A stretch of DNA of 64,000 bases from Desulforamulus hydrothermalis Lam5 = DSM 18033 (GTDB taxonomy: Bacteria; Bacillota; Desulfotomaculia; Desulfotomaculales; Desulfotomaculaceae). The stretch is from positions 186,001 through 250,000 of the forward strand of contig NZ_CAOS01000008.1 in NCBI RefSeq assembly GCF_000315365.1. The letters are read 5' to 3'. Shown one piece after another: positions 7,345-50,376 of the stretch. The position numbers were made by a program, and so were the translations under genes. Every line of letters begins with the position of its first letter. Position 1 is the first letter of the stretch. The notes beneath the pieces were generated by a model. That model worked only from the letters and a program-made list of their open reading frames with translations, made no database searches and was not told the origin of the DNA.

Positions 7345-7435
7345 TACTTTCGGTACAACTATACGTTATGATGACCTGTATATTTATAACTAAATGTTAT
7401 TTGTAATATAATAAAATATTATGATAAAATAGTTT

Positions 7436-7531
7436 GGGGAGAATGGGGAAGGTCCCCCCACGGGCTGCAAACCCGCTGGCCTGCCTGTGATCCAGGCGGG
7501 AGTCCGGTTCGATTCCGACTTCTCCCCTCCA
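7436..7531 (+). tRNA. Class II tRNA with GCA (Cys) anticodon and tRNASec-like architecture
   Basis: The acceptor arm has 8 pairs (GGGGAGAA with TTCTCCCC), followed by U73 and an encoded CCA at 7529-7531. The D arm is compact (GGGGA, AGG, TCCCC). The anticodon loop CTGCAAA is at 7465-7471, giving anticodon GCA. A long variable arm forms a 7-bp stem (CCTGCCT at 7480-7486 with AGGCGGG at 7494-7500). The T loop is the canonical TTCGATT; its stem needs one bulged C or two mismatches. The 8-bp acceptor, short D loop and long variable arm are selenocysteine-tRNA traits, while GCA plus U73 are cysteine identity elements (tRNASec normally has UCA and G73). Normal bacterial tRNA-Cys is class I with a short variable loop. 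It lies 12 bases before tRNA-Lys. Confidence 0.8.
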
Positions 7532-7543
7532 AATACAAGTTAC

Positions 7544-7619
7544 GGGTCATTAGCTCAATTGGTAGAGCAGGCGACTCTTAATCGTCAGGTTGGGGGTTCG
7601 ATTCCCTCATGGCCCACCA
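7544..7619 (+). tRNA. tRNA-Lys (CTT)
   Basis: A standard 76-base cloverleaf: acceptor GGGTCAT/ATGGCCC (one G-U pair), D arm TAGCTCAATTGGTAGAGCA, anticodon loop CTCTTAA (anticodon CTT), T loop GTTCGATTCC and an encoded CCA. A loose hairpin rich in GCCGGC follows, possibly its terminator. It is probably cotranscribed with the unusual tRNA just upstream. Confidence 0.93.
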
Positions 7620-7747
7620 CAGCCGGCTTGCAGCCGGCTTTTCGTATGAGTTGGATACTAAGTCCGTTAAGTGGTTAACAAGTGTAACAATGCCTTTATC
7701 AGTGAATATTATATGATGGAAAAATATTCACAATAAGGGTGATAAAT

Positions 7748-9763: not shown

Positions 9764-11005
9764 GTGGCAATATGTAAACAGAATTATTACAAAAATTCAC
9801 TGATTATAGAGGATATTAGAACAAATACTCCTTATTACCACCCGGGTGTCTTTGATTTTCCTAACTTGCCCTACGATCTACCAATGATTAGCCTTTTTAC
9901 CGGTGCGGGGGGATTAGACCTTGGACTGGAACGAGCGGGATTTTCAACAAGAGCCTATGTTGAAAACAATAAATATTGTATTGAGACCATTAAAATTAAT
10001 CGAAAAGAATGGCGTTTGGTAGGAAATGGCGATATTACTAAAACAAACTCAAAAGAGATTTTGAAAACCGCCGGTCTTAAAATAGGCGAGGCAGCTTTAC
10101 TGGCAGGGGGGGCCCCATGCCAACCGTTCAGCAGTCTGGGTAAAAATGAAGGGGACAGTGTTTCTAACGGTAAATTATATAAATATTTCATCCAAATGGT
10201 TAAAGAAATACAGCCCGTTACTTTTATCTTTGAAAATGTACGAGGGATGGTTCAAAATCATAAAAAAGTAATTGAATTTATGGAACAGGAATTCGGTAAA
10301 TCCGGATACGGAATTTCCATTGCTTTGATCTGTGCCGCTGACTACGGGGTTCCGCAAAAGAGATACCGAGTATTTATTATCGGAAGGAGAGACGGTAAAA
10401 AACCGGGGTTTCCGTTTCCTACTCATGCCGAAAATCCTGAAAGCAGTTTAAAATATTTTAATACTCTTTGTGCTTTAAAAGGAGTACCGTTTCCATACCA
10501 AAAATTAAAAAAATGGGTTACCGTTGGAGAAGTTTTCAGCAGACTGACAAAGGAGCATTATAACAGAAAAGATAATTTTTATGCTCAACTTTCTCCCAAA
10601 ATAGTTGAAATGATCAGTTATATTAAGCCAAAAACCAAAATGTGTTGGGCTGACTTGCCCGATGATTTGAAATTTAATTGTTGGAAAAAAGGAAAGTTCC
10701 AAGGAAGAGATAACTTTAGCCGTCTTCAATATAATGAGCCTTCCGTTACCATCCGTACCGGAGCAATTTATCCTGCAAAAGGTAAATATATCCACCCCGA
10801 ATTAAATCGTGGATTAAGTACAATTGAAATGGCAGCTCTGCAATCCTTCCCGTTAAATCCGGGTAATGAAGGTTGGCACTTTTATGGTGGTATATTAAAT
10901 GTTGCCCGTCAAATCGGAAATGCTGTACCTCCTCTGTTAGCAGAAGCCATAGGTCATGCCTTGAAGCAACAGGTGCTGGAAATAATTAACGGAGCAGGGT
11001 GCTAA
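9764..11005 (+). CDS. drmMII: DISARM-associated C5-cytosine DNA methyltransferase (DrmMII-like)
   Basis: A 413-residue m5C methyltransferase with all core motifs: SAM-binding LFTGAGGLDLG (residues about 44-54), GGAPCQPFSS with the catalytic Cys at about 119, FENVRGM (about 157-162), QKRYRVFIIGRR, a target-recognition region, and RQIGNAVPP near the C-terminus. It transfers a methyl group to cytosine in a specific duplex DNA motif that cannot be deduced here. In class 2 DISARM this enzyme marks self DNA. Start is GTG at 9764, nine bases after AGGGGG. It is the only plus-strand gene of the island and runs tail-to-tail into vsr with a 4-base overlap of stop codons, so it has its own promoter. The island is visibly more AT-rich than its surroundings. 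Confidence 0.85.
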   Translation: MAICKQNYYKNSLIIEDIRTNTPYYHPGVFDFPNLPYDLPMISLFTGAGGLDLGLERAGFSTRAYVENNKYCIETIKINRKEWRLVGNGDITKTNSKEILKTAGLKIGEAALLAGGAPCQPFSSLGKNEGDSVSNGKLYKYFIQMVKEIQPVTFIFENVRGMVQNHKKVIEFMEQEFGKSGYGISIALICAADYGVPQKRYRVFIIGRRDGKKPGFPFPTHAENPESSLKYFNTLCALKGVPFPYQKLKKWVTVGEVFSRLTKEHYNRKDNFYAQLSPKIVEMISYIKPKTKMCWADLPDDLKFNCWKKGKFQGRDNFSRLQYNEPSVTIRTGAIYPAKGKYIHPELNRGLSTIEMAALQSFPLNPGNEGWHFYGGILNVARQIGNAVPPLLAEAIGHALKQQVLEIINGAGC

Positions 11006-11409
11006 TCCCCTCCGTTAATTGTTTGCTTGATATCATTTACCACACGTTCCAATTCCTTTTTAATTTCACAACCCCAGTAACGTTTAACCTTCCATCCCAA
11101 CTGTTCCAACTTTTGCGTAACCTTCATATCGTTCAAACGATTCTTTTTTATTTTGGTAACCCAGAAAACCCTGTTTTGCTCAGGTATTTGTCCGCATTTA
11201 GGACACCCGTGCCAAAAACAACCGTCACAAAACACTGCAATTTTTTTACCCGGAAAGATAATGTCCGGCCGTCCCGGTAATTTATTTGACAATCTATATC
11301 TTAATCCTTGTTGCCATAAAGCCTTACGTAATCTAATTTCCAAATCGGTATTTTTGTTTTTTACGGCGGCCATGTTTTTACTTCTTTCTTCTTTGCTCTT
11401 CGTATCCAT
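11002..11409 (-). CDS. vsr: Very short patch repair endonuclease (Vsr)
   Basis: A 135-residue protein with family marks NMAAVKNKNTDLEIRLRKAL, YRLSNKLPGRPDIIFPGKKIAVFCDGCFWHGC and a C-terminal W..KR.W. The family nicks DNA 5' of the T in T:G mismatches produced by deamination of 5-methylcytosine, starting short-patch repair. Its presence fits the adjacent m5C methyltransferase, whose stop overlaps its own by 4 bases from the opposite strand. It is the last gene of the minus-strand DISARM operon, 49 bases after drmB. Start ATG at 11409 follows AAGGTGG; an upstream GTG at 11418 lies inside that ribosome site. The D and H residues of FPGKKIAVFCDGCFWHGC are the expected active-site and zinc region. 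Confidence 0.9.
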   Translation of the reverse strand: MDTKSKEERSKNMAAVKNKNTDLEIRLRKALWQQGLRYRLSNKLPGRPDIIFPGKKIAVFCDGCFWHGCPKCGQIPEQNRVFWVTKIKKNRLNDMKVTQKLEQLGWKVKRYWGCEIKKELERVVNDIKQTINGGD

Positions 11410-11458
11410 AAAGACCACCTTAAATATTTATACAGCGTGATTTCTTCTTATAGCAATC

Positions 11459-13288
11459 TCAAATAAACAAGTTATTAAGTTTTGACAGAAATCCCATTTC
11501 CGGTTGATCAGGAAGTCCAACCACCAATGCTCTGTCCAGTAACCGGTTAAACTCTTCGCAACATGTTTCAGGCAACAATGCACAGGCATGACAGGCCGCA
11601 AGATTTAAAGACCCCAACCCTTGTCCTGTACTTTCAAAACACAGTGGGTCTGATGAACACCATGAAGCAGCGTTGACCGCCTTTTTAATGACAGAACCGA
11701 GAAATTCCGGTTTGCCTTGTCTGACCAGTCCCCCCATTGTTCCCTCCGAATCACCGCTGGCCGTATAAACTAATATACCGGCCATTAACGGCTGATCATC
11801 TGTCTCATTACAATAAATTCTTTCACGTAAAGAAGCACTGCCGTACCCGCATTCAAAGCTTAATTGTCTGATTAATAAATGAGCAAAAGTATGCAAAAAG
11901 ACAAATGTTGCCGTAATTTTTCGCGGTGGACGCTTTAATTCCGTCGCCATATGATAATATCTGTCGTTTAATATTTTAACTCTTTCTTCAATTTGAGGCA
12001 TCTGTGCCCAGCGGGACAGTTCATCGGTATTAAACATAATAAATATTCCCTCACCGTAAACTTCCACCGCCGGTAACCAGTCAATTTTTTTCTTAAAATT
12101 CTTTAAGTAAACCGCATAGCCAGTTTTTTCGTCATCTTCTTCTGCCGGGTGGGCGTCATTGCGATCCAGCGGCGTAAGCCTGCTGAAAGCATACAATGCC
12201 CTAACCTCTCTTAACCTGTGAACCTGGACAACCTTTTCGATTCCCGGGATTTTATAGTCTTTTCCGTCCCTGATCTGAATTTTAAAATTTTTTGATTCCG
12301 GACTTCCTTCGTCAATGAATCCCTGAAAAGCCTTATATTCATCGTATCGGTAATTGATCTCAACAGACTCAACCACTGTTAGAGGATCGTCATTAAGTAA
12401 CTTTTCAGCAGTCTTTTTTACCTCATTAAAATCACGGTTTATCAGTTTAGCAATCCTCTTATAAAGAACCTCCTTAAATGATTCCTCTTCCAACCCTCCG
12501 TCCTGGGATGACAAGACATCCCACTCACTGGTTCCGCAAATGTCCGAAATCAGGTTGTCGGAATAGGGAGGTATAACTATTGAGTTGATTATCAGAGGAA
12601 AGTAAACATTTGAGGCACCACGTTGAACGGTTTTCGGCCTGGAATCACATACCTCCTTCTCATCAACCCAAGGTTTATATCCGCTACATTGTGTATGAAT
12701 CCCCTCTTTAAATGCCTCATCCATTGTGTAAAAATTACCGCACTTTGTACAGCTGATTTTAATACCGGATAACCCTGAAGCGCTTCCGAATGTTTCGATC
12801 TTTAAGTGATGTTTTGAGAAACATCCTCCCTTACGATGTGCCCATTCTACCCAAGGAAAATCGTCAACATGCCCCTTCTCACATACAACAATAAATCTGC
12901 TGGGTACCAATTTAGCATGGCAAATATCACACCTGGGTATTTTGAATTCCTTTTTATACTTTTCCGTGTATCTCACGGTCCAATCATCAATATGCCTCAA
13001 TAAACGACAATTAGGACAAAAAAGCCATTTCGGAAATCTGACAAAGGGTATCCCGTCTTTATATTCCTGACCGGAAGGAGGCATTTTGAAATATTTTACA
13101 CCTAACCGAGCTTGCAATCGTTGGTCATAAATTTTGGGCCCTGCATTGACATGCCAAAATTCAGTTCCGGCCGGCATTAATGACTCCTCCGGCAAATCAA
13201 CGATACTTCCCACTCCGAAGGGACCAATAAATTGAGAACGCCTCAGAACCTCATACCTCATCCTCGGGTTATAACTGTCCTTACTCAC
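11459..13288 (-). CDS. drmB: DISARM protein DrmB (DUF1998)
   Basis: A 609-residue protein. The N-terminal half carries several zinc-ribbon-like pairs (CPNC at about 90, CDIC at about 119, CEKGHVDDFPW at about 137, CTKC at about 180). The C-terminal DUF1998 region includes HTFAHLLIRQLS, YGSASLRERIY, LVYTASGDSEGTMGGL and the Cys-rich CSSDPLCFES ... CHACALLPETCCEEFN. DrmB is a core DISARM component and forms a complex with the DrmA helicase that blocks incoming phage DNA. Its ATG overlaps the drmA stop by 4 bases (13285-13288), the translational coupling usual for this pair. The assignment rests on DUF1998 plus the DrmA neighbour and is firm. Confidence 0.9.
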   Translation of the reverse strand: MSKDSYNPRMRYEVLRRSQFIGPFGVGSIVDLPEESLMPAGTEFWHVNAGPKIYDQRLQARLGVKYFKMPPSGQEYKDGIPFVRFPKWLFCPNCRLLRHIDDWTVRYTEKYKKEFKIPRCDICHAKLVPSRFIVVCEKGHVDDFPWVEWAHRKGGCFSKHHLKIETFGSASGLSGIKISCTKCGNFYTMDEAFKEGIHTQCSGYKPWVDEKEVCDSRPKTVQRGASNVYFPLIINSIVIPPYSDNLISDICGTSEWDVLSSQDGGLEEESFKEVLYKRIAKLINRDFNEVKKTAEKLLNDDPLTVVESVEINYRYDEYKAFQGFIDEGSPESKNFKIQIRDGKDYKIPGIEKVVQVHRLREVRALYAFSRLTPLDRNDAHPAEEDDEKTGYAVYLKNFKKKIDWLPAVEVYGEGIFIMFNTDELSRWAQMPQIEERVKILNDRYYHMATELKRPPRKITATFVFLHTFAHLLIRQLSFECGYGSASLRERIYCNETDDQPLMAGILVYTASGDSEGTMGGLVRQGKPEFLGSVIKKAVNAASWCSSDPLCFESTGQGLGSLNLAACHACALLPETCCEEFNRLLDRALVVGLPDQPEMGFLSKLNNLFI

Positions 13289-16200
13289 TTTTTCCCCTCC
13301 GATAAATCTTTTATGAAAACGTTACAAACCGCATCAACATTTCTCATTGATTGTAAGGTGGGCCAATGCTTACCCCTCTTACCTGCCTGGTATAGCAAAT
13401 GTGGTTCCTTCTGTGACCCATAGGTCAAATTGCTTTCTGCACGGGCGATTTCAGCCCAGAATTCTATCTTTTTTATTAAATCTGACTCCGTGTCGGACTT
13501 TTCTTCGGCCATTACACTCTCCACCCTGGCAAGAATATAATCCGTCACCTTGTTTAAGTCGGGTATGTCCGGTGTAAATTCTCCGGCTTGGTTATCTTTA
13601 TTTAATCCGATCAGATGTCGTACCAAGGTAACAAGAACCGCATGCAAAGCCCTGTCTCTGGCCGGACCTGAAAAAGGCGTTACACTTGTCGGTTCAACAA
13701 ACTGATAGAATGCCTCATGATATGAAGTAAATCTTTCATAATGGGATCTGTCTCTGGGTCTGGCACCGTCATAAATCGTAAATATCAAGCCCGGATACTT
13801 TCTGCCCACCCTGCTTGTGGCCTGAATATATTCAGATGTGGTTTTCGGTTGACTGATTACCGTCATCATGCCCAGTCTGTCAATATCAACACCTACGGAA
13901 ATCATATTCGTTGCCAGTAATACGTTAACAGATTTTTTATCAGGATATTTTACTTTAAGCCGCTCAAGTATTTCAGGTATTTCTTCAGCACTTTTCCTGC
14001 TTGTCAACTCATCCGCTTTGTAAAACAACCTGCGTTTGGTTTTTCTTCGCATGGCAATTCTACGAACCTGATCTTTTATATCATCCTCAACCAATGTGGA
14101 ACATTTCCCCAATTCCCTTATGGTATTAAAATATCCTACCAAAGTCCAATATTTATCCTTTACTTCGTCGGAATAATCCAATTCCTCTAAATACTGTAAT
14201 TGGGCTGACATTAATCTTACCTGGGTAGTCGTCTGGGTTTTTCCGGCAGCTAAAATACCCGCATATAGTCGACCGGGTTTCTCCTCCAAGGAAGCCTGTC
14301 TGGCAAAAAATGAATCTTCCGCATCCAGACCGGGCGGCGGAAACTGCCTGACATCCCTGTTGTACAACGCCTTAACCTGATCACCGGCCCTCCTGATTGT
14401 AGCCGTAGAAGCAATAATTTTAGGTCTTATTCCCTTCTGAGAACAGAGTGCATCCAAAGCCGTCTCATATAAACCTACTATTGTTCCTAACGGTCCGGAG
14501 ATTAAATGCAATTCGTCCTGTATAATCAGTTCAGGAGATAAGTTATTATTTCCTGAATTTAATGCAAAGATATTAGAGATCTCTTTTTTCCAAGGCATCA
14601 TGGCAAATTTATCCACAGTAGCAAACAATAACGTAGGAGAATCCCTGTAAATATCATCATCAACAACAGATATGGGTAATTCATCCCTGAAAGCACAGGT
14701 TTTCTCCGTACATCTCAGGGCAAACCTTTTGGGGCGGTCCTTTCTTATATATCCCCATTCTCCTCTGCCCTTTTCTTTAATCATTTTTGTTCCACACCAT
14801 GGACAACTAAGTACCTGAAACGGATTTTTTTCATCCGTTCCTATTGCAAGTTTGTCCAGTTGATAAAATGCATCCTCCAGCGTATTGGGTGTTGAAGCAC
14901 TCCCGATCCATAAACCGATGGAAATGCGTCCTTCTCCTAATTCATTAGGATTCTCTTTTCTGATTAATTCACATGCACAAATTAAAGTGCCGGCTCTTTG
15001 AAATTGCTGAGCTGTCAGCAACCGTAAGGTATAGCGCATGATAATTGCAGTACCGTTTCCTATGACAGGATTTTTAAGTCGCCTTAAGAATATAGTAAAG
15101 GCCGATATCCCTAAGTAAGCTTCCGTTTTTCCGCCACCGGTCGGAAACCAGATTAAATCCACCAGTTCCCGGTCGTAATCCCCGGGGTTATCAATCCCTG
15201 CAATATTAAGAAGTATAAAAGCCAATTGAAACGGACGCCAAGATGCTTCTTGATCAGGTATTTTTTGATAATTCGGCCATTTTACAGGTTTGTCGTCCGG
15301 ATATCTGGTCTCCTCTTGTAATATGGTATGTGCTCTTTGCATCAACATGGCACGATTGGCCAACTGAAATGCTTTATATACTTTATCATTCTCTTCCAAA
15401 ACTTTTATTCCTTTAAAAATTCTTAACCCGGATTCTTCACAAAGTTTTATATGATCCTCGGCGATAGCTCTATATTCCTCCGGCAGAGTATTTTTTATTT
15501 TATTTAAGCCTTTTACCCACTCGGTATAGGCACCGGCAAAAAGCCTTAACTTTTCGATTATTTGGTTTTTGGAAAGGTCAGAAATATCACTAAGATTCTT
15601 CATAACCAAGATATCTTTTACATGATTTAATTCACTGACATCAAATTTAACTTGCGGCACTTCAGTATAAGGTATGATTTCCGTATAGATTCTTACAGCT
15701 TTATCGTTCTCTTTTTGCCAATTTACCGCACAACCATGACCGACCGCAAAGGTCTTTTTATTTCTGTAAAGTAAGGATAAAGATTTTTCTTCGGGGTCAT
15801 CTGAAAATTTATTGTAAGAACGGTAATCCAAAAACTCAGTATTTACGTCAACCGGTTCAACGGAAAAACCCACCTGAAAATATGCCTTTTCCGCATTTTT
15901 CTCTTTTTTCGCAATGTATTCGTTAATTAAAGATATTGTAAACAGGGTATGGTTGTAATCAGGGCTTGGACGCCGAATGCATACTATACTCAGTTTTTCA
16001 CCAACTTTTTCCGACCACCGTGAAATTGATTTACCACTGTCAGTGGGAACAACTATCGTACATTTTTCCTCAGACAGGGGAACCCTGACCCAACCGTTAT
16101 GAATTAAGTTGTATACTTGATATACAGCCGCTTTATATCCCTCATGGTCATAAAGCCTCAGGAGAGAATCCCTGTCCTCTTTTTCTATTTTAACTTTTGG

Positions 16201-16662
16201 TTTGATTTTATTTTCTTCGTAAGTAATACACCGTTGAAAAACTGACGATAGCTGTATCCCTTCCGGCAAAGGTTCAACTGGAACTTCACAGTCATCTAAA
16301 GAAACTCTTCTATAACCGGCCGCTTTTACAGTTACTTTTAACTCAGGATTTATACCGTTTACATAAAAGCTCATTCCTAGGGAAGACGGATAATATTGGT
16401 TAGCTGTATTTACAGAAATATCCAAATACTCGTTTTCATCAGAAACCGCAGCTTCATTATGACCGGTGTCATTATGTTCATCGTCGAAATTGACCTTCTG
16501 TTTCTGAGGGTACAATATCCCAACAGAGTATCTCTGTAACGGACTTTCAGTAATAATCTCACGTTCTTTGGGCATGTTTTTACCTTCTGACCCGGGTCCC
16601 ATCATTTCCATAATCACAGCGTTTAATAGATCATGTCTCAGTTTCTTATATTCATCCGTCAT
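13285..16662 (-). CDS. drmA: DISARM helicase DrmA
   Basis: A 1125-residue superfamily 2 helicase. Motifs: Walker A LIWFPTGGGKTEA at about residues 505-517, Walker B/motif II IIQDELHLISGPLG (DELH) at about 714, ASTATIRRAGDQV (motif III), ATNMISVGVDIDRLGMM at about 920 and the arginine-rich YIQATSRVGRKYPG (motif VI). A pair of CxxC clusters (CPWCGTKM, CTEKTC) lies between the RecA lobes. In DISARM, DrmA with DrmB forms the sensor/translocase core. The ATG at 16662 abuts the stop of the upstream NERD-helicase gene without a gap, and the stop overlaps drmB, so the genes form one tightly coupled operon. AT-rich codon use differs from the flanking chromosome. Confidence 0.9.
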   Translation of the reverse strand: MTDEYKKLRHDLLNAVIMEMMGPGSEGKNMPKEREIITESPLQRYSVGILYPQKQKVNFDDEHNDTGHNEAAVSDENEYLDISVNTANQYYPSSLGMSFYVNGINPELKVTVKAAGYRRVSLDDCEVPVEPLPEGIQLSSVFQRCITYEENKIKPKVKIEKEDRDSLLRLYDHEGYKAAVYQVYNLIHNGWVRVPLSEEKCTIVVPTDSGKSISRWSEKVGEKLSIVCIRRPSPDYNHTLFTISLINEYIAKKEKNAEKAYFQVGFSVEPVDVNTEFLDYRSYNKFSDDPEEKSLSLLYRNKKTFAVGHGCAVNWQKENDKAVRIYTEIIPYTEVPQVKFDVSELNHVKDILVMKNLSDISDLSKNQIIEKLRLFAGAYTEWVKGLNKIKNTLPEEYRAIAEDHIKLCEESGLRIFKGIKVLEENDKVYKAFQLANRAMLMQRAHTILQEETRYPDDKPVKWPNYQKIPDQEASWRPFQLAFILLNIAGIDNPGDYDRELVDLIWFPTGGGKTEAYLGISAFTIFLRRLKNPVIGNGTAIIMRYTLRLLTAQQFQRAGTLICACELIRKENPNELGEGRISIGLWIGSASTPNTLEDAFYQLDKLAIGTDEKNPFQVLSCPWCGTKMIKEKGRGEWGYIRKDRPKRFALRCTEKTCAFRDELPISVVDDDIYRDSPTLLFATVDKFAMMPWKKEISNIFALNSGNNNLSPELIIQDELHLISGPLGTIVGLYETALDALCSQKGIRPKIIASTATIRRAGDQVKALYNRDVRQFPPPGLDAEDSFFARQASLEEKPGRLYAGILAAGKTQTTTQVRLMSAQLQYLEELDYSDEVKDKYWTLVGYFNTIRELGKCSTLVEDDIKDQVRRIAMRRKTKRRLFYKADELTSRKSAEEIPEILERLKVKYPDKKSVNVLLATNMISVGVDIDRLGMMTVISQPKTTSEYIQATSRVGRKYPGLIFTIYDGARPRDRSHYERFTSYHEAFYQFVEPTSVTPFSGPARDRALHAVLVTLVRHLIGLNKDNQAGEFTPDIPDLNKVTDYILARVESVMAEEKSDTESDLIKKIEFWAEIARAESNLTYGSQKEPHLLYQAGKRGKHWPTLQSMRNVDAVCNVFIKDLSEGKK

Positions 16663-18399
16663 TTATCCTCTCCCCTTTGTTAAATACTCAATATTCTTTT
16701 CAAGGTATCTTTGTTTAAGGTTACTGTTTAGCAGAAGAATTAACAGTTGTCCGGCACGGCTCATTGCTACATAATTAACGGTATTGGCTTTGTCTCCGTC
16801 TATATCTTTAACACCGCAATAAATTATTACCTTGTTTTCCATTCCTTTAAACCCTTGAGCCGTACTGTATGTTATTTTGTTCTCGGGTAATTCCCCGGCA
16901 TTTTCATGCGTAACTTTCTCAAAATCATAAAAGGTTTTCAAGTCAATAATCATATCTTCAAACCCCTTCTCTGGATATAGCAGCGTGATAGCACCGGGCT
17001 TTACACCTTCGGAAAGAAGTTTTTTAATTATATCCACGAGGATATTTATTTGATCCCTTTCATCGATGAACCAATAATATTGAACCTTTTCCCCGCCCTC
17101 TGTCCGGGTGTTTTCTACGTTAAATCCCGAAACCACCGAAGTTTGGACAGCTATTTGTTTAGTATTTCGACAATTAATGTCCAACCGATAATCTGCCGCT
17201 CCAAACTCCGTAAGCTGTTTTACCAATGTTCGATCAAAGTTTTTATACAATTCTCCTTGATTATTTGAATCATAAAAAATCGCCCATTCCCCTTTTTCCA
17301 GTCCGTCTTTTAAAATGTAGTCCAGGGCCTGGAAATACTCAGAACATAACAGATCCTGTCCTTCATCAATAACCAAACAATCATAAGTCTCCTGAATTTC
17401 ATTTAATGCCCGGATAAAAAATTGAGGATATATTTTTTTGTAAAGCGTATCCCCGTTAAATTGATCGTGGACTTGTAAAAACTGATCCTGTAAACTTGTT
17501 GATAATATTATGTTATAAAAATATTTATGGACAGAATTTGCCGTTATGAGGTGATGGTTTTCCATTCGGTTTGTTTTATAACGTAATTTTCCGCCTAATA
17601 TTTTGTTATAGCAAAGCAGTAAAACCCTTTTATTGTTAAGTGCGGTTCTCCGTACTTTTTCCAAGGCCAAAAGCGTTTTACCGGTACCGGCGGTCCCTCT
17701 GAAAAATACTCTTTTGTTATTCTCCATTCTGTCTAACGCTTTATATTGCTCCTCGGTAAGCTGGATTATTTGTTTCTCTAAACCCTCCAGCTTTTCATTC
17801 AACGGTATGATCAGTTCAAAATCCTTTCTTAGATAACCCGCTAAATAATCTATCTCGGAGTTTGTAAACTTTCTTTTACCGGGCAGTTTATCATTCCAAT
17901 AACCAATCAACCTTTTAAGATATTTCCCAAACGGTTTTAATCTGTCAGAAATATCATATACAATTTGATTATCCCATTCAGGTGATTCAACACTAAATTC
18001 AATGTCCGGAAACAAAACACCGTATCCGAATAAACAATCGTTAAAAGAGTTGCCAAATTCCCGGTTTATGTTTTCCCTTAATGAATATAAAGCCGATGCT
18101 ACCTGTTTGAAAGGGCTTTCTTTTTTTTTCGTTATGAAGCCATACCTGTCGGTAAAAAACCAAAACCCGGCATCACGTTTAACTCGACCCCCTTTGACCT
18201 CAAGGCAAAACAGACCTCCCGAACCGAGTAAAATAAAATCAATTTCTCCTTCAGCTTTAAACATATGCCTGGCTATTCCCAGGGAATGAAGACAAACCCA
18301 ACCGTCAAGACCGGCTTCGTTTTTAATTAATTGAAATATTTTTTTTTCGGCTACACTTTTAATATTTGCATGTGTATAGGGAGGAATCATTCTTACCAC
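16663..18399 (-). CDS. NERD nuclease-domain / UvrD-like helicase in the DISARM operon
   Basis: A 578-residue fusion. Residues about 10-115 form a NERD-type nuclease-related domain with GEIDFILLGSGGLFCLEVKGGRV, whose D..EVK pattern matches the PD-(D/E)XK-like core. A superfamily 1 helicase follows: Walker A FFRGTAGTGKTLLALEK at about 233, VIDEGQDLL at about 345, INCRNTKQ, and the C-terminal STAQGFKGMENKVII ... YVAMSRAGQLL. Start is GTG at 18399 behind GAGGTGA. It lies 21 bases after the DrmE-like gene and directly abuts drmA. No DrmC (phospholipase-D-type) gene is visible, so this protein may supply nuclease activity; that is an inference. Similar NERD-helicases occur in other defence islands. 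Confidence 0.8.
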   Translation of the reverse strand: MVRMIPPYTHANIKSVAEKKIFQLIKNEAGLDGWVCLHSLGIARHMFKAEGEIDFILLGSGGLFCLEVKGGRVKRDAGFWFFTDRYGFITKKKESPFKQVASALYSLRENINREFGNSFNDCLFGYGVLFPDIEFSVESPEWDNQIVYDISDRLKPFGKYLKRLIGYWNDKLPGKRKFTNSEIDYLAGYLRKDFELIIPLNEKLEGLEKQIIQLTEEQYKALDRMENNKRVFFRGTAGTGKTLLALEKVRRTALNNKRVLLLCYNKILGGKLRYKTNRMENHHLITANSVHKYFYNIILSTSLQDQFLQVHDQFNGDTLYKKIYPQFFIRALNEIQETYDCLVIDEGQDLLCSEYFQALDYILKDGLEKGEWAIFYDSNNQGELYKNFDRTLVKQLTEFGAADYRLDINCRNTKQIAVQTSVVSGFNVENTRTEGGEKVQYYWFIDERDQINILVDIIKKLLSEGVKPGAITLLYPEKGFEDMIIDLKTFYDFEKVTHENAGELPENKITYSTAQGFKGMENKVIIYCGVKDIDGDKANTVNYVAMSRAGQLLILLLNSNLKQRYLEKNIEYLTKGRG

Positions 18400-33237: not shown

Positions 33238-33606
33238 ACTAAAAACTCCGTCCCCGACAGGGACGGAGCATTACTCCGCGGTACCACCCTGGTTGGCCAT
33301 GCAGGCCCACCTCACAGGTACAGGAAAGCCGGCGGCAAATAAAAAACTCCATCCACCAAGGGACGGAGGTATTTCCGTGGTACCACCCTAATTGCGTAAT
33401 GCCACTCTGCCGGTACGGGATATTTCCGATACCTTTCCCTTTTAACGGCGGGAACTCCGGCTGCACCTACTGACCTTTCAGCACAGCAACTCCGGAGGGA
33501 ACTTCAGTCAACCGTCCTTGAAGAAACTTCCAGTCGCGGTTTCTTCTCCCTGGCAAGGCCTGCTTTGACCTACTTTTCTCCATCATCGAATTGCCCTATA
33601 CTTTAA
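33238..33606 (-). promoter_or_regulatory. T-box leader with a second antiterminator/terminator module
   Basis: On the minus strand a T-box Stem I region (about 33606-33490; GGTCAA pairs with TTGACT) is followed by the T-box AGGGTGGTACCACGG at 33389-33375 and a terminator (33369-33340, CTCCGTCCC-like arm and T-run). A second T-box, AGGGTGGTACCGCGG at 33290-33276, and a second terminator (CTCCGTCCC with GGGACGGAG, 33268-33246, then T-run) follow about 100 bases on, without a second Stem I. The best specifier candidate is TTC (Phe) at 33501-33499 after TGAAG; this is tentative. It controls paaK and the ACT gene. Confidence 0.85.
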
Positions 33607-39214: not shown

Positions 39215-39230
39215 GGTTAATAAACGGCTT

Positions 39231-39327
39231 CCCACATTCCCTTCGCTGGTACTAACCAGATCAGGTTCAAAGGGTCAAGCACATCATCGGGTGCTTATCT
39301 CAGCCCGCCTCACCGGGCCCCCCCATT
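39231..39327 (-). ncRNA. TPP riboswitch (THI element) upstream of thiC
   Basis: The minus strand carries the THI core: GGCGGGCTGAGA, then ACCC-like joining region, CTTTGAACCTGATCTGGTTA and GTACCAGCGAAGGGAA. These conserved segments bind thiamine pyrophosphate. With the downstream terminator, TPP binding would stop transcription of thiC. Confidence 0.97.
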
Positions 39328-39424
39328 GGTTTATCCTGTTCATATAAAGTTGTCATACACCCAGGTATTCTATGCAGCCCGAAAAAAACCTGCTAAAATT
39401 TTATGCCCGCCGCAAATAATTTTT

Positions 39425-50111: not shown

Positions 50112-50376
50112 CAGAGTGTAGGCAAAGGTTGTAAAACAAAGTGAGGTGGTTTTATGATCCCCTGTCGGCGACTTGTCGAAGCACCGGTCACAGCACTTGA
50201 TGAGCGAAAGGAGCCATTGGGGTGGCGCCCACAGGACGTGGGCGCCAGCCGAACCGGGCCAGGATGGCCCGTTTGAGGCGACCCCAAGGGCGAACGGAGC
50301 GAATCATAGTGCTGTCGGTGCGTAGACCGGAGCCAAAGGGGATCATAAACCACAGTTAATGTTTGTCGACACTCTG
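50112..50376. mobile_element. Palindromic miniature element, copy E (long form), inside an exactly duplicated hairpin
   Basis: The 265-base element starts CAGAGTGTAGGCAAAG and ends GTTTGTCGACACTCTG, which are inverted termini. The strand is opposite to copies B-D. TTTATGATCCCC at 50151-50162 faces GGGGATCATAA at 50338-50348. It carries about 150 extra inner bases with a GGCGCCCACAGG/GTGGGCGCC hairpin. The flanking hairpin CAATCCCTTGAT.../...CAAGGGATTA occurs at 50084-50111 and again at 50377-50404 with all 28 bases identical, so this copy looks the youngest. Confidence 0.88.

Follow-up and report, generated by a model that had tools for sequence, protein, structure and literature searches.

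The window analysed here, a stretch of 64,000 nucleotides of the Desulforamulus hydrothermalis genome (contig 8, 186001-250000), carries at positions 7436-7531 of the forward strand a genuine extra cysteine tRNA with the build of a selenocysteine tRNA. Judged by its sequence, this tRNA belongs to the kind already described as selC* tRNA-Cys.

The tRNA gene and its transcription unit

Direct reading gives a gene of 96 nt, encoded CCA included. In the acceptor stem, GGGGAGAA (7436-7443) is associated with UUCUCCCC (7520-7527) by 8/8 perfect pairs (98.9% of cells paired in relatives). The D stem, GGGG(A)/(U)CCCC, closes a loop of 3-5 nt and the anticodon loop, CUGCAAA, exposes GCA at 7467-7469. 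The long variable arm (7480-7500), defined by folding and covariation, has a stem of 7-8 bp (7480-7487 with 7493-7500) and a loop of 5 nt. The T arm (7502-7519), with the stem GU[C]CGG/CCGAC, is composed of 5 bp and one bulged C (7504), which gives an 8/5 branch plus bulge of 13 bp in total; a T stem of 5 bp with a bulge is also present in 64 distinct GCA/U73 sequences. The discriminator U73 (7528), a cysteine identity element, precedes the CCA (7529-7531). The 8-bp acceptor, 3-5 nt D loop, long variable arm, GCA, U73 and encoded CCA listed in an earlier note on this DNA are all confirmed in the sequence, and the cysteine identity that it proposed agrees with the retention of GCA and U73 in nearly all relatives.

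ARAGORN identifies the gene as tRNA-Cys(GCA). Its best Rfam model is RF01852, that of tRNA-Sec (Infernal, 45.5 bits, E 4e-8, just below the curated cut-off of 47), which supports the tRNA-Sec-like architecture put forward earlier; the general tRNA model RF00005 gave no better match. The minimum free energy of the fold is -48.2 kcal/mol (z -2.4). A misread class I tRNA is ruled out by the stems, by covariation and by RF01852 being the best model.

The gene shares with canonical bacterial tRNA-Sec (RF01852) the 8/5 branch, the short D loop and the long variable arm, but it has GCA instead of UCA, U73 instead of G73 and a bulged T stem, and the genome contains a separate true selC. It shares GCA, U73 and CCA with canonical class I tRNA-Cys, whose 7-bp acceptor (7/5 branch) and short variable loop contrast with the 8/5 branch plus bulge and long arm observed here. 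Allo-tRNAs, which turned up in the same searches, also have a long variable arm; however, their branch is of 12 bp (8/4 or 9/3) and their amino acid identity is different (mostly SerRS). The selC* tRNA-Cys described for anaerobes including Firmicutes (PMC7609411) have a GCA (or opal) anticodon, U73 and a body like that of tRNA-Sec, in which the acceptor is of 8 bp, the D loop short and the variable arm long. Their T stem is bulged, and they coexist with a true selC and SelB in an anaerobic host. All of this is found in D. hydrothermalis. The bulge of the group is reported as a dispensable A51a in a 4-bp T stem (PMC7609411), versus a C in a 5-bp stem here. Its presence had been correctly noticed in the earlier note, but it is a described mark of the selC* group (PMC7609411) rather than the further departure it was taken for.

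Compared by published description, the selC* of Desulfotomaculum nigrificans (Mukai 2017; Vargas-Rodriguez 2018) has the same GCA and a tRNA-Sec-like structure. The window tRNA belongs to a different genus (Desulforamulus) and is followed by a tRNA-Lys and not by YedE. The general architecture is also common to the selC* of Syntrophobacterales and Desulfobacterales, and the identity elements to the Syntrophobacterales-type copies. However, these tRNAs have an 8/4 branch with a bulged A and usually a SelB* close by, joined in Desulfobacterales by CysRS*, whereas the window tRNA has an 8/5 branch, a bulged C and neither partner.

A probable promoter of the unit lies at 7401-7430 on the forward strand (TTGTAA-18-TAAAAT, the second hexamer being preceded by TG; a weak match in a consensus scan) and a second match at 7383-7412. 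These are consensus matches and a weak indication, three promoter-like sites being found against 1.3 expected in shuffles. An ordinary tRNA-Lys(CTT) identified by ARAGORN (7544-7619, forward strand) is probably cotranscribed with the 7436-7531 tRNA, and the same pairing is repeated in several relatives. A terminator-like hairpin (7621-7639, forward strand), a consensus match, may end this two-tRNA unit. Downstream of the pair, DISARM-like defence genes occupy 9764-18399 (C5 methylase, Vsr, DrmB, DrmA and NERD helicase). The window also includes a T-box leader (33356-33595) and a TPP riboswitch (39221-39334), both on the reverse strand, and a TwoAYGGAY RNA motif on the forward strand (50174-50328).

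Conservation and distribution of the selC*-type tRNA

The selC*-type tRNA is present in 10/10 genomes of the family. A covariance model (R1) built from 12 copies was run on 113 genomes of the order (the whole class in our data set) and gave matches in 75, two of which contained tRNA-Sec only. After reading of the sequences, the Cys form (U73 with GCA, twice with ACA) was recognized in 64/113 genomes and a UCA form, which has A73 except for one G73, in 9 genomes, all from one family. Class-wide, the T stem is made of 5 bp and one bulged base. The nature and site of this base vary and it is missing in a few sequences.

Among 12 close relatives, an independent MAFFT alignment contains 14 two-sided compensatory cells versus 6.9 expected. 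The 83 distinct class-wide matches, aligned by fitting to the model and with a few non-members among them, contain 308 two-sided changes versus 69 in shuffles, a result with which the MAFFT alignment agrees. All 8 pairs of the variable arm have undergone two-sided changes. The occurrence in every family genome and these compensatory changes speak against a chance resemblance.

Extra selC* copies at two loci (L154 and L158) carry the anticodon ACA in place of GCA. In one genome (G066, L193:2501-2597), the intact gene is followed at 1.3 kb by a copy of its 3' half, which resembles the attachment-site remnant of an element that used the tRNA gene. On sequence evidence, a pseudogene is ruled out for the window gene by the conservation across the family and by the compensatory changes. 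That an ancient duplication of selC left it behind as a non-functional relic is hardly credible: such degraded copies (the 3'-half remnant and those with ACA) do exist elsewhere, but no genome of the family is devoid of the gene, compensatory change is strong and the window copy has all its stems and CCA intact.

The UCA form of family f16 (L168, L171, L172, L174, L178, L181, L189, L191 and L192) has a bulged T stem and a partly unencoded CCA, and is accompanied by a normal tRNA-Sec. The selC* tRNA-Cys was reportedly named tRNA-ReC by Vargas-Rodriguez in 2018, and its Pelotomaculum UCA derivative tRNA-ReU. The UCA/A73 form of family f16 is probably this Pelotomaculum tRNA-ReU.

A pattern search over named genomes identified selC* also in Syntrophobacteraceae, other Deltaproteobacteria, Thermodesulfobacteriota, Desulfofervidaceae and some Actinomycetota. 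The 4-bp T stem with a bulged A was observed here only outside the class, in most Syntrophobacterales-type copies and at a few other loci. Four loci (L216, L222, L232 and L238) from genomes labelled Actinomycetota or Solincola carry a selC* that has GCA and U73 and no bulge in its 8/5 branch; Actinomycetota is a phylum outside the list of the selC* review. Covariance-model matches of about 40-63 bits in other checked genomes were rejected as relatives, being true tRNA-Sec (UCA), and the weaker matches in the phylum sample were all ordinary tRNA-Sec on checking.

Selenium and cysteine machinery

The genome of D. hydrothermalis (2.69 Mb, rated 99.94% complete) contains both a normal tRNA-Cys and a true selC, for which the earlier note had suggested a search: two class I tRNA-Cys genes of identical sequence and a selC (UCA, G73; 70.8 bits). 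It also includes adjacent genes for SelA (named from sequence) and SelB (TIGR00475), and one CysRS. Neither SelB* nor CysRS* is present in this genome and a gene search over cut-off did not find YedE. A search for in-frame UGA codons around its own sel locus identified no convincing selenoprotein gene.

Since two canonical tRNA-Cys genes are present, UGC and UGU are already covered. The proposal that the window tRNA decodes these codons is therefore not favoured, all the more as the D. nigrificans selC* tRNA is reported to be delivered by SelB, not by EF-Tu, and to recode UGA with Cys (2024 review, PMC11415595). The GCA anticodon and U73, the ARAGORN label and the unit shared with tRNA-Lys would fit an elongator of unusual shape, a third tRNA-Cys that CysRS charges and EF-Tu carries. 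We nevertheless consider it unlikely: covariation has kept the 13-bp branch and the long variable arm class-wide, and an ordinary elongator has no need of them; linkage to YedE, SaoX or SelB* would be unexpected.

Charging by SerRS followed by conversion, also raised earlier, is not favoured either because the tRNA has U73, not the G73 of SerRS/tRNA-Sec. Aeromonas salmonicida provides a precedent for a tRNA-Sec with a cysteine anticodon that inserts Sec at chosen Cys codons (PMC11415595). A comparable tRNA, charged by SerRS and converted by SelA, would be in keeping with the tRNA-Sec-like body, with RF01852 as best model and with the selenium-linked neighbours in relatives. It is very improbable here, given that nearly all GCA relatives have U73 and that a separate selC, with UCA and G73, exists in the genome.

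Charging by CysRS* and UGA recoding were reported for the selC* of Desulfobacterales (PMC7609411, PMC9437257), and SelB adjoins selC* in many non-Firmicute loci, Syntrophobacterales-type among them, in what corresponds to the described SelB* arrangement. SelB was never found near the selC* of Desulfotomaculia (within 1.5-2.5 kb). In nearly all genomes of the order there is just one full-length CysRS, and SelB over cut-off is usually single as well. A dedicated CysRS* or SelB* partner is thus ruled out within the class, with one CysRS, usually one SelB and none near selC*. In the phylum sample, SelB occurs in 15/15 of the genomes outside the order that have the GCA form versus 266/398 overall (p about 0.002, ignoring phylogeny). 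In the class and order SelB is found in nearly every genome and co-occurrence there is uninformative. The T-stem pairs 49:65 and 50:64, considered as a marker of EF-Tu or SelB delivery, are uninformative as well since they are also present in tRNA-Ser, Leu and Asn.

Selenium genes beside selC* in relatives and proposed function

In 22 loci from 21 genomes and 5 families, selC* is followed on its own strand, after 20-75 nt, by the start of a gene for YedE (L080, L083, L084, L089, L095, L149, L153-L155, L157, L158, L163, L164, L169, L177, L180, L182-L184, L186, L188 and L190). The protein is assigned to TIGR04112, 'putative selenium transporter' (487.6 bits). In the order, 88 genomes have yedE over cut-off. 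Random placement would produce far below one such case of adjacency. At another locus (L173) yedE is divergent and 235 nt from selC*, and in a distant relative (L250) the order is yedE, selC* and a YedF-like gene. The next gene encodes SaoX (NF040735, 528 bits) in 7/9 UCA loci, and likewise in one GCA locus from the family that has the UCA form. The papers covered make no mention of a linkage of selC* to YedE or SaoX, the primary descriptions (Mukai 2017; Vargas-Rodriguez 2018) lying outside this coverage. As D. hydrothermalis is devoid of YedE, the link between selC* and YedE is a property of its relatives and not of its own genome.

Two other neighbours recur. A double-cubane-cluster reductase (NF040772) is encoded close to selC*, on either side, at seven loci of several lineages (L083, L149, L176, L187, L251, L256 and L082). 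In family f4, a protein of 71-77 aa (MHEELNKIKLKMKALGFSQQQIE...) without NCBIfam match is encoded after selC* or after the selC*-tRNA-Lys pair (L220:5657 region, L150, L090 and L145).

Genome context had led to the proposal that YedE transports selenium (PMC5322559). In the archaeon Methanococcus maripaludis, yedE mRNA increases by 5.3 log2 upon selenium depletion and yedE deletions have no clear transport defect (PMC11097638). The SaoX family includes predicted selenoprotein members (PMC13188914). The recurrent position ahead of putative selenium-transporter genes in relatives suggests that the tRNA is a backup for selenium shortage. A position so close to yedE, 20-75 nt ahead of it at 22 loci, could also be expected of a mainly regulatory or leader RNA, controlling for example the YedE mRNA, with no decoding activity. 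This is very improbable because conservation of the anticodon, U73 and CCA is strong, many copies, the window's included, have no YedE downstream, and the D. nigrificans relative is reported to be active in decoding (PMC11415595).

We regard as likely, from the combined analyses, that the window gene is a Desulforamulus selC* tRNA-Cys which is charged by CysRS, delivered by SelB and inserts Cys at SECIS-associated UGA codons when Sec-tRNA is short. The single CysRS would charge the tRNA with cysteine through GCA and U73, both of which are observed. The 13-bp acceptor/T branch and the long variable arm would make it a substrate of SelB and not of EF-Tu, as reported for D. nigrificans. SelB would then carry the Cys-tRNA to those UGA codons that have a SECIS element; on such a codon the third base is the only one with which GCA mispairs. 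Upon Sec-tRNA shortage, selenoproteins would thus be made with cysteine, a scarcity role already posited for the selC*/SelB*/CysRS* system of Desulfobacterales (PMC9437257).

This explanation is preferred because it accounts for the structure and identity elements in a genome with selC(UCA), SelA/SelB, one CysRS and two canonical tRNA-Cys, because the D. nigrificans relative is reported to depend on SelB and to recode UGA with Cys (PMC11415595) and because a low-selenium role was posited for related systems. The constant presence of SelB in the 15 sampled selC* genomes outside the order and the SelB* adjoining selC* in Syntrophobacterales-type loci argue in the same direction. The co-location of selC* and YedE in related genomes, together with the induction of yedE mRNA on selenium depletion in an archaeon, supports a selenium-linked role. 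Against it, D. hydrothermalis has no YedE and its copy sits before tRNA-Lys, the reading of its sel locus yielded no selenoprotein gene, the T-stem pairs do not set the tRNA apart from those of EF-Tu type, and SelB, being near-universal in the class, gives no indication of SelB dependence there.

The window tRNA adds one member to a known kind; what may matter is its class-wide context, in which the linkage to YedE and SaoX deserves attention. This linkage connects, on independent grounds, a transporter family without proven substrate (YedE) with Cys/Sec recoding. From the placement ahead of YedE, or ahead of SaoX in the case of the UCA form, the proposed role as a low-selenium safeguard gains a direct and testable prediction, co-induction on selenium starvation. 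We tentatively propose, as a possibility somewhat short of even, that in Desulfotomaculia a Cys-recoding tRNA heads selenium-uptake operons (tRNA-YedE and, in one family, UCA/A73 derivative-SaoX) and that selenium shortage would raise the importer and the Cys-for-Sec tRNA together. If so, one tRNA gene and one transporter gene would constitute a selenium-responsive switch of codon meaning.
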